From: an uncultured Eubacterium sp.
Lineage (GTDB): Bacteria; Bacillota; Clostridia; Oscillospirales; Acutalibacteraceae
Length of the DNA: 15,047 nt
Direction of reading: 5' to 3'
Assembly (NCBI GenBank): GCA_945980015.1
Contig: CAMFQI010000004.1
Coordinates: 1 to 15,047, forward strand
In this document: positions 734 through 10,598 of the stretch, piece after piece
Layout: each line of letters opens with the position of its first letter
How positions within the stretch are numbered: the first letter of the stretch is position 1
Translations under genes and position numbers: made by a program
The notes under the pieces: model-generated
What the model saw: only the letters and a program-made list of their open reading frames with translations
Databases searched by the model: none
What the model was told of the DNA's origin: nothing

Positions 734-765
734 AAAAAAACAGGCAATCCCACTATGGAACTGCC
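734..765 (-). terminator. Rho-independent terminator, probably the original lysS terminator
   Basis: Read on the minus strand, GGCAGTTCC (765-757) pairs with GGGATTGCC (751-743) over nine positions including two G-T pairs, with a 5-nt loop, and is followed by a run of seven T (740-734). It lies 18 nt past the stop codon of the lysS tail remnant, where the terminator of an uninterrupted lysS would be expected. It now also ends transcription of the two-gene insert. Confidence 0.75.
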
Positions 766-782
766 CATTTATTAATAAATAT

Positions 783-824
783 TTACTTATCAAGCGGCTT
801 CATTGTCGGGATTCTGGCAGAAAC
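783..824 (-). pseudogene. 3'-terminal remnant of a lysyl-tRNA synthetase gene
   Basis: The minus strand reads V-S-A-R-I-P-T-M-K-P-L-D-K-stop (stop codon 785-783). This aligns with the end of the intact lysS ([15 protein letters not shown], stop at 3210), allowing one extra codon. PTMKPLDK is a common C-terminus for bacterial LysRS. The frame closes upstream with TAG at 852-854 and has no start, so it is not a gene. The two tails share the protein motif but differ at several wobble positions, which fits a tail of different origin rather than a recent duplication. Interpreted as the displaced original 3' end of lysS, cut off by insertion of the 2.4-kb segment. Confidence 0.65.
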
Positions 825-920
825 CGGGAATCCGCGGGAATTAACACGAATCTATCGCAATTTCGCAAATGGGAAATAGACAAATTAAGAATTATCTCTA
901 GTCATTTAGAATTGCAGCAT

Positions 921-938
921 GTGTAAATTGGTGTAAGT
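921..938. repeat. Left copy of an exact 18-bp direct repeat (putative arm-type site)
   Basis: GTGTAAATTGGTGTAAGT occurs here and again, in the same orientation, at 3129-3146. It is made of two GTGTAA half-units ten bases apart. It lies about 118 bp inside the left lysS-tail copy. Function as an integrase arm-binding site is inference. Confidence 0.6.
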
Positions 939-1017
939 GGTGAAATGGCGAACAATAAAGCACGTCTTGTTTATAAGTCGTTTTTACTGTCTGTACGACC
1001 AATAACTGATATTATAT

Positions 1018-1818
1018 TCACCAAGAATACTCTGATAAAACTATGTTATACGTTTCTCCGGGGACGGCATCATAAAAGCTGACTGAATCATCTTTGAATT
1101 TATCGCCTTTACTCAGAGATCGTAAATAGATATTACCGGAATCAACCAAATAGCCAGAACTATCATAGAGTTTATAGCTAATCATATCATAGTTTGAATT
1201 GCTACCTGATACTTTTTCACCACTAATCACGATATTAAGTATAGAAGTAACACTCTTATCATACGAATACTGAACATCAGTGATTTTAATAACGGACTCT
1301 ACCGAACCATCGTAGCCCTTAATAGATATTTGTTTTGGAATATCTGATGCAGTTAGTTGAACAGCAGCAACCGGTAGACAATACAAAGCCCTACAGTTAA
1401 CTTCATCAAAACGAACAATATTATCTTTGTATACTGTTAGATAAACTGTTCCGTTTGAGGACTTCCCGGTGGAAATATCTTTTTCGGGTATTCTGATCTC
1501 GGCAAGATACTGTTTGTCTGCTGCTTTGCTCTCATAGTAATCAAAATCTTTTCTCGTTACCGATGCTGTTGCCTTGTAGACTTCTTCATTTGAATCGTTT
1601 ACAATGCGAATATCAACATCTGCATCAGCAGAAATATATGTATCGTTGCTATTTAATAAGCCAAAAAATAAACTATAATCATTTGTACCTGAATTATATT
1701 GAAAGGACCATCCTTTAAGTGTTTCAATATCATTATTGAGAACTACTCCCGGTAAAAGAGAGCATCCACATAGAGAAATAAGCACTAAAGCAAAAAGACA
1801 ACACAAAAGCTTTTTCAT
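1018..1818 (-). CDS. Putative lipoprotein of unknown function
   Basis: This is a 266-residue protein starting at ATG 1818. A TTG at 1836 and an ATG at 1824 are also in frame, but the Shine-Dalgarno GGAGGT (1826-1831) is correctly spaced only for 1818. The N-terminus MKKLLCCLFALVLISLCGC is a lipoprotein signal peptide with lipobox L-C-G-C, so the mature protein should be anchored by lipidated Cys19 on the outer face of the membrane. The rest has no further membrane segment and is rich in short alternating hydrophobic stretches, suggesting two beta-sandwich domains (about residues 30-145 and 160-266). It starts 14 nt after the stop of the 383-residue gene, so the two are co-transcribed. I do not recognise a named family; similar cell-surface lipoproteins seem common in gut Clostridia, from memory only. 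It is one of the two cargo genes of the lysS-end element. Confidence 0.75.
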   Translation of the reverse strand: MKKLLCCLFALVLISLCGCSLLPGVVLNNDIETLKGWSFQYNSGTNDYSLFFGLLNSNDTYISADADVDIRIVNDSNEEVYKATASVTRKDFDYYESKAADKQYLAEIRIPEKDISTGKSSNGTVYLTVYKDNIVRFDEVNCRALYCLPVAAVQLTASDIPKQISIKGYDGSVESVIKITDVQYSYDKSVTSILNIVISGEKVSGSNSNYDMISYKLYDSSGYLVDSGNIYLRSLSKGDKFKDDSVSFYDAVPGETYNIVLSEYSW

Positions 1819-1832
1819 AGTCATTACCTCCG

Positions 1833-2984
1833 TCAACGCAAATCCTTATCTTTATCGTAATCAGTCATCATAATATCAAGCATTTCTTTATTTTGTTTTT
1901 TAACTGATTTATAAAGAGGACATATCTGCCGATTACATTGTTCGGAAAGATAACAAGCCTCACAAATTATGCTGTCAATTCTTTGTGCCATTAACTCCTT
2001 ATCCGAAGGTAGAGTGTACGGATCAATCTTTTTGATATCATTCGGATTTCTTAAACCGTAATCAATCGTTTTGCCGTTGCTTTTCTTCACATAGCGATAC
2101 ACATCGGCGACAAAAGAGAGACTGTCTCCAACTTCAAAGCCTTCAAATCCCGAAATATCCATCCAAACGTGTTCCTCTTTGTCGTCAAAGCAAACACCAT
2201 CTGAATACATACACTCTAACCAAATACGGTTGAAACAAACCGCTTTGGCAGTCTTTCTCTCAATCGTGCCTTTATAGGCTAAAACATAATTATAAACGGC
2301 ATTCAGAAAAGCTGTCCTTTGCTTTCCGGCAGAACGAAGTTGAACTTCGATATACTCATCATAAGAAAACTTCTCGGCCCCAACCACTTCCTTCATTCCG
2401 TTTGGGCTGAAGTCAACGATGCCATATTCGCTCAAATTACAAGTGGTATCTTTACCATAGTAATTACCGAAGAGTTCCCTTTCTTCCGGAAACTTTTCCA
2501 AAAGTTTAGCAGCATCTTTTAGTCTCTTATTTCGAGCGATATTATGTTTGCGATTTGACTCTTGTTTTTCTCTACGGATTTGTTTTTCAATATAATTGAT
2601 TTCGTTTTCAGTGAGAAGAGGCTCCAAATTTTCTGGGGAATCGTAAGTGCCACCCACAAGTTTCTTTTTGAAACGAACCAAGACAGCTTTTACCATATCT
2701 GGCGAAAGGTATTTTGCCTTGTCGATTGAACAACTATAGTAGCAGCCGGTAACAATATTACCATGACCTTTTCCGTAGAGAACAGCTGTGTTCCAAGGGC
2801 ATAACATATGTTCCTTTTGAACAAGGCTTCCTCGTTTTAATCCTTCCATAAACTCCGGAAAGATTTTCGGATTACCACAGCCTTCGTAGTCTTCCACCCA
2901 AAAGCCGGATGGACCTTTGTCTGCATTTTGAATCATTGTTTCCAAGATGCGTAGAGTTTCATTTTTTTTGCCTTTGTTAATCAT
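1833..2984 (-). CDS. Hypothetical cysteine-rich protein, element cargo
   Basis: The gene encodes 383 residues from ATG 2984, preceded by GGAGGT (2991-2996). No signal peptide or membrane segment is visible, so it is probably cytoplasmic. The N-terminal third has scattered cysteines (CGNPK, MLCPWN, GCYYSC). A Lys/Arg/Glu-rich, probably helical or coiled stretch covers about residues 122-165 (NEINYIEKQIRREKQ onward). The later part (about 275-325, around GFEVGDSLSFVADVYRY) looks like a small beta-barrel, possibly OB-like. Near the C-terminus is C-x2-C-x5-C-x4-C (CEACYLSEQCNRQIC), a likely zinc or Fe-S ligand set. No family is recognised. It lacks the R-H-R-Y signature of a tyrosine recombinase and any serine recombinase motif, so it is not an evident integrase. 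It heads the two-gene operon of the lysS-end element. Confidence 0.75.
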   Translation of the reverse strand: MINKGKKNETLRILETMIQNADKGPSGFWVEDYEGCGNPKIFPEFMEGLKRGSLVQKEHMLCPWNTAVLYGKGHGNIVTGCYYSCSIDKAKYLSPDMVKAVLVRFKKKLVGGTYDSPENLEPLLTENEINYIEKQIRREKQESNRKHNIARNKRLKDAAKLLEKFPEERELFGNYYGKDTTCNLSEYGIVDFSPNGMKEVVGAEKFSYDEYIEVQLRSAGKQRTAFLNAVYNYVLAYKGTIERKTAKAVCFNRIWLECMYSDGVCFDDKEEHVWMDISGFEGFEVGDSLSFVADVYRYVKKSNGKTIDYGLRNPNDIKKIDPYTLPSDKELMAQRIDSIICEACYLSEQCNRQICPLYKSVKKQNKEMLDIMMTDYDKDKDLR

Positions 2985-3007
2985 TACACTTACCTCCGAT
3001 AATAAGT

Positions 3008-3023
3008 GCTATCAAATGATAGC
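3008..3023 (-). promoter_or_regulatory. Perfect 6-bp hairpin in the leader of the cysteine-rich gene
   Basis: GCTATC-AAAT-GATAGC forms a perfect short stem about 11 nt upstream of the ribosome binding site of the 383-residue gene. It has no T-tract, so it is not a terminator. It could be a leader structure or a protein-binding dyad. Confidence 0.3.
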
Positions 3024-3077
3024 CTGACATGCTAACAAAGGTAGCGTAGTTAGTAAAGGCATAAAACCTCTAATTTA

Positions 3078-3102
3078 GTATACAGTAAGCTTTATTTATG
3101 CA
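3078..3102 (-). promoter_or_regulatory. Weak candidate promoter of the element genes
   Basis: On the minus strand TATACT (3078-3083) resembles a -10, with TTGCAT only 15 bp upstream as a poor -35. This is the best candidate between lysS and the two cargo genes. No terminator is visible between lysS and this point, so read-through from lysS is also possible. Confidence 0.25.
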
Positions 3103-3116
3103 ATTTTGCACAAAAT

Positions 3117-3156
3117 GGTGTACCAATGGTGTAAATTGGTGTAAGTTGTTGGTGTA
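3117..3156. repeat. Cluster of four GGTGTA repeats with right copy of the 18-bp repeat
   Basis: GGTGTA occurs at 3117, 3128, 3138 and 3151, all in one orientation and spaced 10-13 bp, about one helical turn. The block contains the exact 18-bp repeat also found at 921-938. Regular spacing fits binding of several protein protomers on one DNA face, as for integrase arm-type sites or replication iterons. It is immediately followed by three GAATTA units (3174-3198) leading up to the lysS stop codon. Confidence 0.6.
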
Positions 3157-3209
3157 AACCCGTTCATAAGTCGAATTATCGAGAATTACGAAGAATTATA
3201 AAGGGTTAT

Positions 3210-5042
3210 TTAATCGATGGGCTTCATCGTTGGAAAAGCGAGAACGTCACGGATAGAATAGCTGTCTGTAAGAAGCATAACAAGACGGTCAATACCGATG
3301 CCCAATCCTCCTGTCGGCGGCATACCGTATTCGAGTGCCATAACGAAATCGTTATCTATCATATTTGCTTCCTCGTCGCCTGCCTCACGAAGCTTCATTT
3401 GAGCCTCAAAGCGTTGCATTTGGTCAATCGGGTCGTTAAGCTCGGAATAAGCATTTCCGTACTCTCCGCCGAGAATGAACAGCTCAAAGCGTTCTGTAAG
3501 TGCAGGACAATCGGGCTTTCTCTTTGTAAGCGGGCTGACCTCAACAGGATAATCCATAATAAAGGTCGGCTGAGTAAGATTTTCCTCTACAAATTCCTCA
3601 AAGAAGCTATTGAGAATATCGCCCCAGGTAGCCTTACCGTTTTCGATTTCAATTCCCTTTTCCTTTGCAATAGCGACTGCCTTTTCGTCGTCGCTCATAA
3701 AATCTGCAAAGTCAACGCCGCTGTACTGCTTAACTGCCTCAACCATAGTAAGACGCTTAAACGGACTTTCAAGGTCGATTTCTGTGCCGTTAAATACAAT
3801 ATGAAGACTGTCGCAAACCTCGTTTGCAGCATTACGAATGAGTGCCTCGGAAATATCCATCATACCGTGATAATCTGTAAATGCTTGATAAAGCTCGATA
3901 CAGGTGAATTCGGGATTATGACGAACGTCCATACCTTCGTTGCGGAAGTTTCTGCCTATTTCATACACTCTTTCCATACCGCCTACAATAAGACGCTTCA
4001 AATAAAGCTCGGTTGCGATACGAAGATACATATCCATATCAAGAGTGTTATGGTGAGTAATAAACGGTCTTGCGGCAGCACCGCCTGCGATAGTGTTAAG
4101 AATCGGCGTTTCAACCTCAACAAAGCCGAGATTATCAAGATAATGGCGGATTGATGAAATGATTTTTGAACGCTTAATGAAGGTGTCCTTTACATCGGGA
4201 TTCATAATCATATCAAGATATCTTCTGCGATATCTTGTATCCGTATCGGTAAGACCGTGGAATTTTTCGGGAAGCGGAAGAAGTGACTTTGAAAGAAGAC
4301 GAAGCTTCTGCGCATGAACGGAAATTTCGCCCGTTCTCGTCTTAAAGACGAAGCCTGTTACTTCAACGATATCACCGATATCCCAGCCCTTAAATTCGGA
4401 AAAAGCATCTTCACCAACGTCATTCATTCTTACATAAGCCTGAATTCTGCCGTTTCTGTCCTGAATATCAACGAAGTTAGCCTTGCCCATATCACGCCAT
4501 GTCATAATTCTGCCGGCAACGGTTACTTCCTTATTTTCAAGATTTTCAAAATCAGCCTTGATTTCGTCGCTGTGATGAGTTTGAGTTGCAATAGTGATTT
4601 CAAACGGGTCTTTACCCTCGTCCTGCAATTTTTTGAGCTTATTAATTCTAATCTGCTTTTGCTCATTTTCGCTAAGTACGACCTCAGCCATCGTCATTTG
4701 AGCCGCATTTGCGTTATTGCCGATTTTTTCGATTATCTCAAGTGCTTCGGCTTCGGAGTCAGCCTTGCCGCTCAATGCAACGTCGCCCGTTTGCAGGAAA
4801 AGAGTATAGCAAGCCTTGTCGCCGTCGTTATCGACAACATATTTCGGATTTGTCTTTTCCTCATCGCCTGCAATATTATTCTGAACCTTCATTCGCGAGT
4901 TTTTCTTAACTGCCTTAACTCCACGCTTGCAGGCGTCCTCCTTTTCAAAAACAGGAGACGAACCGACGCTAACCTCGTCAATTAATAATTCAAATGTGAA
5001 AGTGCCGTCACCGTGCTTGGTGATTTCAAACTTTCCTGCCAT
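3210..5042 (-). CDS. lysS: Lysyl-tRNA synthetase, class II, with N-terminal YegP/DUF1508-like extension
   Basis: LysRS charges tRNA-Lys with lysine using ATP. The catalytic part begins near residue 118 ([15 protein letters not shown]) and shows the OB-fold anticodon-binding domain (about 172-250, [20 protein letters not shown]), class II motif 2 ([14 protein letters not shown], 366-379), motif 3 ([10 protein letters not shown], about 578-587) and the usual PTMKP ending. At 610 residues it is about 110 longer than typical LysRS. The extra N-terminus ([19 protein letters not shown], then GVKAVKKNS) resembles the first repeat of YegP/UPF0339 (DUF1508), and residues 66-110 look like a diverged second repeat. 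The fusion appears real: the ATG at 5042 has an upstream AGAGGT, while the internal ATGs at 4697 and 4691 lack a Shine-Dalgarno. It lies 21 nt after greA and shares its promoter. Its tail may have been supplied by the inserted element (it ends PID rather than PLDK). Confidence 0.95.
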
Positions 5043-10486: not shown

Positions 10487-10488
10487 TA

Positions 10489-10598
10489 GTGATATACGCT
10501 TACAGCGTGTGATATATTCCCTTGCGGGAATGTGATATTTTGCGATAATAATCGCAAAGTGATATACGCCTTGCGGCGTGTAACAAACAGGGACTGTT
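10489..10598. repeat. Tandem array of unrelated hairpins joined by a constant GTGATAT linker
   Basis: GTGATAT occurs four times (10489, 10509, 10532, 10559). Each copy is followed at once by a perfect inverted repeat of different sequence: ACGCT/AGCGT (10496-10508), ATTCCC/GGGAAT (10516-10531), TTTGCGAT/ATCGCAAA (10539-10558) and ACGCC/GGCGT (10566-10579). Loops are 3-4 nt (TAC, TTGC, AATA, TTGC). A fifth small dyad AACAG-GGA-CTGTT (10586-10598) follows without the linker. There is no coding potential. Stems vary in sequence and length (5-8 bp) while the linker is invariant, which implies selection on structure. It is not a CRISPR array. It fills the gap between the lysC terminator and the TetR promoter. 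Confidence 0.8.

Follow-up and report, generated by a model that had tools for sequence, protein, structure and literature searches.

The stretch of DNA analysed here (the window, 15,047 nt) is the whole of contig C4 in a 74%-complete assembly of 293 contigs. It carries an intact lysS gene on the minus strand (3210-5042; an open reading frame with a Pfam tRNA-synt_2 match), the presumed target gene of the insertion, whose product ends PTMKPID*. The order of features 3′ of lysS is an array of TTACACC/GTACACC repeats, a structured RNA leader, the genes ORF383 and ORF272, a smaller repeat array, a displaced copy of the lysS tail, a terminator-like hairpin and a regulator gene truncated by the contig end. 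The gene names ilvD, XRE-type regulator and nucleotidyltransferase are our presumptions, read from the sequence and taken from no family search. At its N terminus, the window lysS is extended by approximately 110 residues that weakly match DUF1508 (E 0.015); in most matches from other genera, the aligned part begins no earlier than residue 108.

The lysS tail is present twice, as the original prediction stated, and both copies can be read in the sequence: once on the gene (stop at 3210) and once at 783-809, where the minus strand reads PTMKPLDK*. The predicted exact stretch common to both copies, GGCTTCAT, is found at 796-803 and 3220-3227. The core is TTTCCAACGATGAAGCC on the lysS side (3220-3236, minus strand) and TCCCGACAATGAAGCC in the displaced copy, and the core copies differ at several bases. 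The remnant had been drawn as 42 bp (783-824), and this extent must be shortened. When 171 bases (700-870) were searched in 80 genomes of the genus, matches were obtained in 31 genomes; among the 35 matches listed besides the window, 22 start at base 811 and two at base 809 (the other 11 lie elsewhere in the query), which gives a lysS-like part of 29 bp at 783-811. All but one of the 24 matches starting at 811 or 809 are lysS 3′ ends or already known displaced tails, and the remaining one is in G014. The terminator expected directly after the remnant corresponds to a terminator-like hairpin of 15 pairs (738-770, minus strand) located 3′ of the displaced tail, which by eye resembles the sequence after the displaced tail of the genome G102. 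A degenerate 17-mer of the core matches in 57 of the 80 genus genomes, with two matches each in G028, G035 and G102; its reversed control gave none.

Hybrid junctions and repeat arrays

The closest relative, G013, has a lysS gene 96% identical to that of the window and served as the reference for comparing the tails. The gene-side copy agrees with G013 at 17 of 20 bases before the core and at 5 of 13 after it, whereas the displaced copy agrees at 8 of 20 before and at 11 of 13 after. This opposite switch of identity at the core is the pattern that would be expected from a single strand exchange within the core, that is, from site-specific insertion. The displaced tail at 783-811 is thus likely to be the original end of the host lysS. 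Because the post-core bases of the gene-side copy agree with G013 in only 5 of 13 cases, lysS bases 3210-3219, which lie past the core, were likely brought in by the element. The mean post-core similarity over 24 uninterrupted loci (6.5 vs 7.1 of 13) hardly separates the two copies and was dropped as a discriminator; therefore, the polarity of the tails rests on G013. An argument from synteny, using a stretch at approximately 696-714 common to G013, was also set aside because that part of the query matches elsewhere in G094, G025 and G068.

Internal repeats were predicted at both boundaries and are present at both. Four TTACACC/GTACACC repeats occupy 3117-3158 on the lysS side, and the distal repeats, which are fewer, occupy 920-941 (both minus strand); these are the predicted arm sites of an integrase. 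A 21-nt stretch is common to the two boundaries at 95% identity (921-941 vs 3129-3149). The motif GGTGTA occurs at 930, 3117, 3128, 3138 and 3151, and the four occurrences within 45 bp on the lysS side compare with a maximum of two in 300 dinucleotide shuffles, none of which reached three. Relative to the core ATGAA, the window repeats lie at +70/+83/+93/+104 and the distal ones at -133/-123; with steps of 13, 10 and 11 bp, the lysS-side series is more irregular than in the relatives, which keep to 11 bp. In the insertions of these relatives, paired repeats with this 11-bp offset are located at +61/+72, +62/+73, +85/+96 or +95/+106, and the distal repeats range from about -146 to -120. The repeat sequence varies between elements (TTACACCAA, TTACATCAA, TTGACAACA, TTACGACC, TTACGACA), and this variation would fit different integrases with one common target.

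The repeated lysS piece is short (29 bp) and imperfect, as it might be if the tail had been duplicated locally, or had come by chance to resemble lysS, beside two unrelated genes. We consider such an origin very improbable in view of the hybrid junctions, the repeats at both ends, the same anatomy found elsewhere together with an integrase, and the published use of this site as an insertion hotspot.

Integrase-bearing elements and the occupancy of lysS in the genus

In G102, a single contig contains a complete 8.5-kb element that is flanked by two lysS tails and encodes a tyrosine integrase near its distal end. It resembles the window segment in its genus and site, its two lysS tails, its repeats at both ends and a similar terminator-like sequence, but it differs in having the integrase and other genes, and its repeats are TTACGACC instead of TTACACCAA. 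The integrase family of this type, defined at E <= 1e-40 over the 80 genus genomes, occupies seven places in six genomes. A displaced lysS tail follows the integrase at six of these loci (PTMKPLDK, PTMKPLDNN or PTMKPLD), and none was found at the seventh (32% identical). Integrase, repeats and displaced tail occur together in G024, G060, G027, G030 and G073; G024 and G073 each carry matching repeats in two places, next to the integrase and, on a different contig, next to lysS, and in G060, G027 and G030 the repeat is TTACACCAA, which the window also has. The larger elements that the original prediction proposed to search for were found as elements of the same anatomy (in G102 and these five genomes), but not as copies of the window's own end: taken as a whole, the 146 bp of the lysS-side end occur nowhere else in the 80 genus genomes, where matches are only 21-25 bp long. 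What the window and the genus elements have in common is the core, the repeats and the layout.

The window's own assembly (74% complete) contains two other tyrosine recombinase genes and no integrase of the G102 type at E <= 1e-40, and seven integrase queries detected no integrase remnant beyond chance at the ends of the segment (701-1100 and 2941-3220). A possible link between the two kinds of element comes from P0204, a 303-residue protein from a 63.7-kb contig that is known only as a protein, in which the front of a lysS-type integrase is fused in frame with the rear part of ORF272. Its integrase part matches that of G024 at 72% over 127 residues and that of G030 at 75% over 72 residues, and its ORF272 part is 90% identical over 69% of the query. 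P0204 suggests that a lysS integrase lies next to ORF272 in a relative, and it could also be an assembly chimera.

We examined 70 lysS 3′ ends taken from the 80 genomes. A gene that we take to be ilvD-like lies within 600 bp of the lysS 3′ end in 24 of the 70, and none of these 24 has a repeat pair. A pair of 8-mers 10-13 bp apart and 45-130 nt from the core is present in 11 of the 70, in one case (G072) with an unfamiliar sequence. The expectation that empty sites would be found in relatives was borne out insofar as lysS loci without an insertion exist (the 24 above), but the exact empty site, consisting of the lysS tail, the terminator and the same regulator gene, was not found among the 70 fetched loci. 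A close relative of the window regulator (71%) occurs only in G005 among these loci, and G005 has a decayed insertion there, the distal end of which is gone through a deletion reaching into the regulator gene.

Insertions at lysS can thus decay in place, as G005 shows, and the window segment might likewise be an old insertion with dead ends that now behaves as an ordinary chromosomal operon. The differences between the core copies and the smaller number of distal repeats are consistent with such a fixed remnant; however, both ends retain the core and the repeats at the usual distances, and metagenomic copies of ORF383, at whatever sites these may lie, reach 97% identity. We regard this as a reasonable possibility, albeit one that we do not favor over an element with ends that may still be usable.

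Several other insertions deserve mention. In G005 and G028 (L033 and L036), nearly the same end with TTACACCAA repeats follows lysS, and the insertions carry a zinc-ribbon-like gene and a nucleotidyltransferase-like gene, the latter a presumptive name for a gene that resembles drug-modifying ones. In G035 (L050, C60:2521-3137), a 600-bp insertion with one small ORF lies between two lysS tails, followed by terminator-like sequence; it is an even smaller integrase-less lysS insertion. Five species (G021, G022, G098, G100 and G101; L057, L055, L200, L193 and L198) have 30 identical bases from the core ATGAA onward, and because the contigs of four of them stop within 80 nt, more insertions may be hidden there; the common bases and the contig ends point to a repeated mobile end. 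In G030, G027 and G033 (L056, L058 and L059), lysS continues into a further domain, which we take to be of the tRNA-binding type, via a linker with two GGTGTAAA motifs, GGTGTAAA being the reverse complement of the TTTACACC repeat. A separate small ORF resembling this extra domain lies just before the displaced lysS tail of G028 (L237, C2:2955-3464), and by eye another repeat pair comes after that tail.

Cargo genes and the RNA leader

ORF383 (1833-2984, minus strand) encodes a cysteine-rich protein with a predicted OB-fold-like domain at about residues 223-327, and its downstream partner ORF272 (1018-1836, minus strand) encodes a predicted lipoprotein (lipobox by eye). These are the only two ORFs of the segment, which contains no recombinase, relaxase or other conjugation gene, and neither of them has a significant match in Pfam, PADLOC, PHROGs or NCBIfam (best E 0.058); the earlier description of the interior as two unrecognised genes without a recombinase is thus accurate. 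Presence of the same two genes in all relatives, with no empty site, had been named as speaking against an insertion; ORF383 is present in one of the 80 genus genomes. It has 382 homologues at E <= 0.001, and in genome contigs it was located at 55 loci, mostly in Clostridia MAGs, where ORF272 follows it in 19 cases and contig ends truncate some of the remaining loci. A viral origin was rejected, as two protein scans of IMG/VR, and one with the leader pattern, turned up no relative.

In one of these loci, L108, which belongs to another genus (lysS 68% identical), the ORF383-ORF272 pair also lies after lysS, its repeat arrays are laid out almost as in the window, and the query set used found no integrase on its 6.7-kb contig. 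A second end much like the lysS-side end of the window lies just beyond the pair, which suggests a tandem insertion. Together with the one-gene insertion of G035, L108 is what might be expected if the pair were a minimal cassette moved repeatedly in trans by lysS integrases as a two-gene unit, instead of what is left of a single decayed ICE or IME. However, we could not place the ends in L108 exactly, and lysS was not found within the fetched flanks of the other 54 genome loci; therefore, the pair is not tied to the lysS site. We consider a trans-moved cassette unlikely.

The RNA leader (2993-3036, minus strand) precedes ORF383 and has the form GTTAGCATGTCAGG-hairpin-CACTTATTATCGGAGG, with two stems and a ribosome-binding site. 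We aligned the window with 21 loci in which the leader is visible. The stems pair in 99.6% of the alignment cells, with changes on both sides in 5 of 12 pairs, and none of 500 shuffles reaches the observed pairing, double changes or covariation score. Versions of the structure that were slid along the alignment pair in 23-77%. One measure, the count of further pair types, does not exceed the shuffles (279 of 500 reach the observed value). The sequences are related, and the alignment that was tested is also the one that yielded the structure; we therefore take the covariation as support for the leader, not as proof.

A covariance model recovered the leader on the strand of the gene in 30 of 34 further homologous loci with E below 1e-5; the exceptions are L151, with a weak match, and L152, L156 and L161, with none. 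The leader lies near the start of the matched gene part, and slightly inside it in L132 and L137; ten of the further loci were read, and several of these have shorter homologues without the front part. Within the genome of the window, 150 of the 642 first-look candidates were scored, and no copy besides that of the window stood out. A strict pattern of the conserved bases is found in 2 of 398 family genomes, namely, the window and one case without an evident hairpin by eye. A search of the whole window against Rfam at E up to 1 gave no match at the leader; elsewhere in the window, it gave a Gut-1 RNA-like match at 10487-10570 on the plus strand (46.1 bits vs a gathering score of 50, E 1.6e-6). 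The leader could also be read as a short ORF from its ATG, and this peptide reading was set aside because homologues differ in hairpin length, and with it in reading frame, but retain the pairing (frames by eye).

Because the leader ends at the ribosome-binding site and accompanies one protein family, its role is likely to be translational control, perhaps by the ORF383 protein itself. We consider the leader a candidate new cis-regulatory RNA tied to an OB-fold-like protein family, and it may be the newer item of this locus.

Relation to known elements and origin of the segment

According to the published descriptions, CIMEs have kept their att sites and lost their recombination and transfer genes, and the classical class measures 1.2-13 kb (PMC7563491, PMC5704250). 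The window segment has two attachment-like ends and no integrase, relaxase or conjugation gene, and its 2.4 kb fits this size class. It shares with the CIMEs of streptococci, as those sources describe them, a site on each side, the lack of recombination and transfer genes, the presence of cargo, and the location at the 3′ end of a housekeeping gene. It differs in lying at lysS in another lineage; no ICE or IME was seen in tandem with it, the contig extending only 783 bp further, and its cargo has no counterpart in that literature as far as the sections cited go. The ends resemble those of integrase-bearing elements, with P0204 as a hint, but no parent ICE or IME was found for the window segment, and we saw no relaxase or transfer gene that would tie it to such an ancestor. 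Descent from an ICE or IME by deletion is nevertheless likely.

The 3′ end of lysS is a described insertion site of streptococcal ICEs (PMC4701971) and of the enterococcal vanD islands Tn6711-Tn6713 (PMC8301612). Repeats given for this site, such as TTCCCGACAATGA, follow the pattern TTCCC[AGC]ACAATGA, which coincides with the window core, and a core like it is present in both copies. The vanD islands are described there as about 112-126 kb in size and carry an integrase, whereas the window segment has none, so we do not file it as an ICE, an IME or an integrase island. Our literature searches found no paper joining CIMEs, cis-mobilizable elements and lysS, nor one joining integrase-less genomic islands, attL and action in trans, which is not proof of absence.

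The 2.4-kb segment combines a patchy distribution of its cargo with repeat arrays at both ends that are laid out as in integrase-bearing lysS elements. We conclude with considerable confidence, on the basis of sequence comparison, that the segment at 783-3236 is CIME-like, an element without an integrase that carries two cargo genes between two att-like ends and was likely put at the lysS 3′ end by a lysS-specific tyrosine integrase. The original prediction of a cis-mobilisable or decayed element that replaced the lysS tail and left the enzyme whole was right in substance. In this mechanism, the crossover would have fallen in the core, and the element would have supplied a substitute lysS tail, so that the enzyme remained intact. 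Insertion would have been the work of an integrase, since lost, that belonged to an ancestral or co-resident element. The ends may still be usable, either in trans or through accretion and cis-mobilisation, by an integrase that arrives later. The cargo would be a two-gene operon for an OB-fold-like, cysteine-rich protein, with translation likely controlled by the leader, and a predicted lipoprotein. A bolder proposal, which we hold to be improbable, is that the segment parasitises lysS integrases in a minimal form, its two ends being the only mobility parts. Any resident lysS integrase would then carry it between genera, and its OB-fold protein would control its own translation via a new class of leader.

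The CIME-like element described here extends integrase-less islands of this kind to lysS in this lineage, at the same site as is used by vanD islands in enterococci. The lysS 3′ ends of one genus take up elements with several repeat types, and it is likely that several integrase specificities have one target in common. Furthermore, a covarying leader before a widespread and unnamed protein family presents a directly testable question of RNA-protein regulation.
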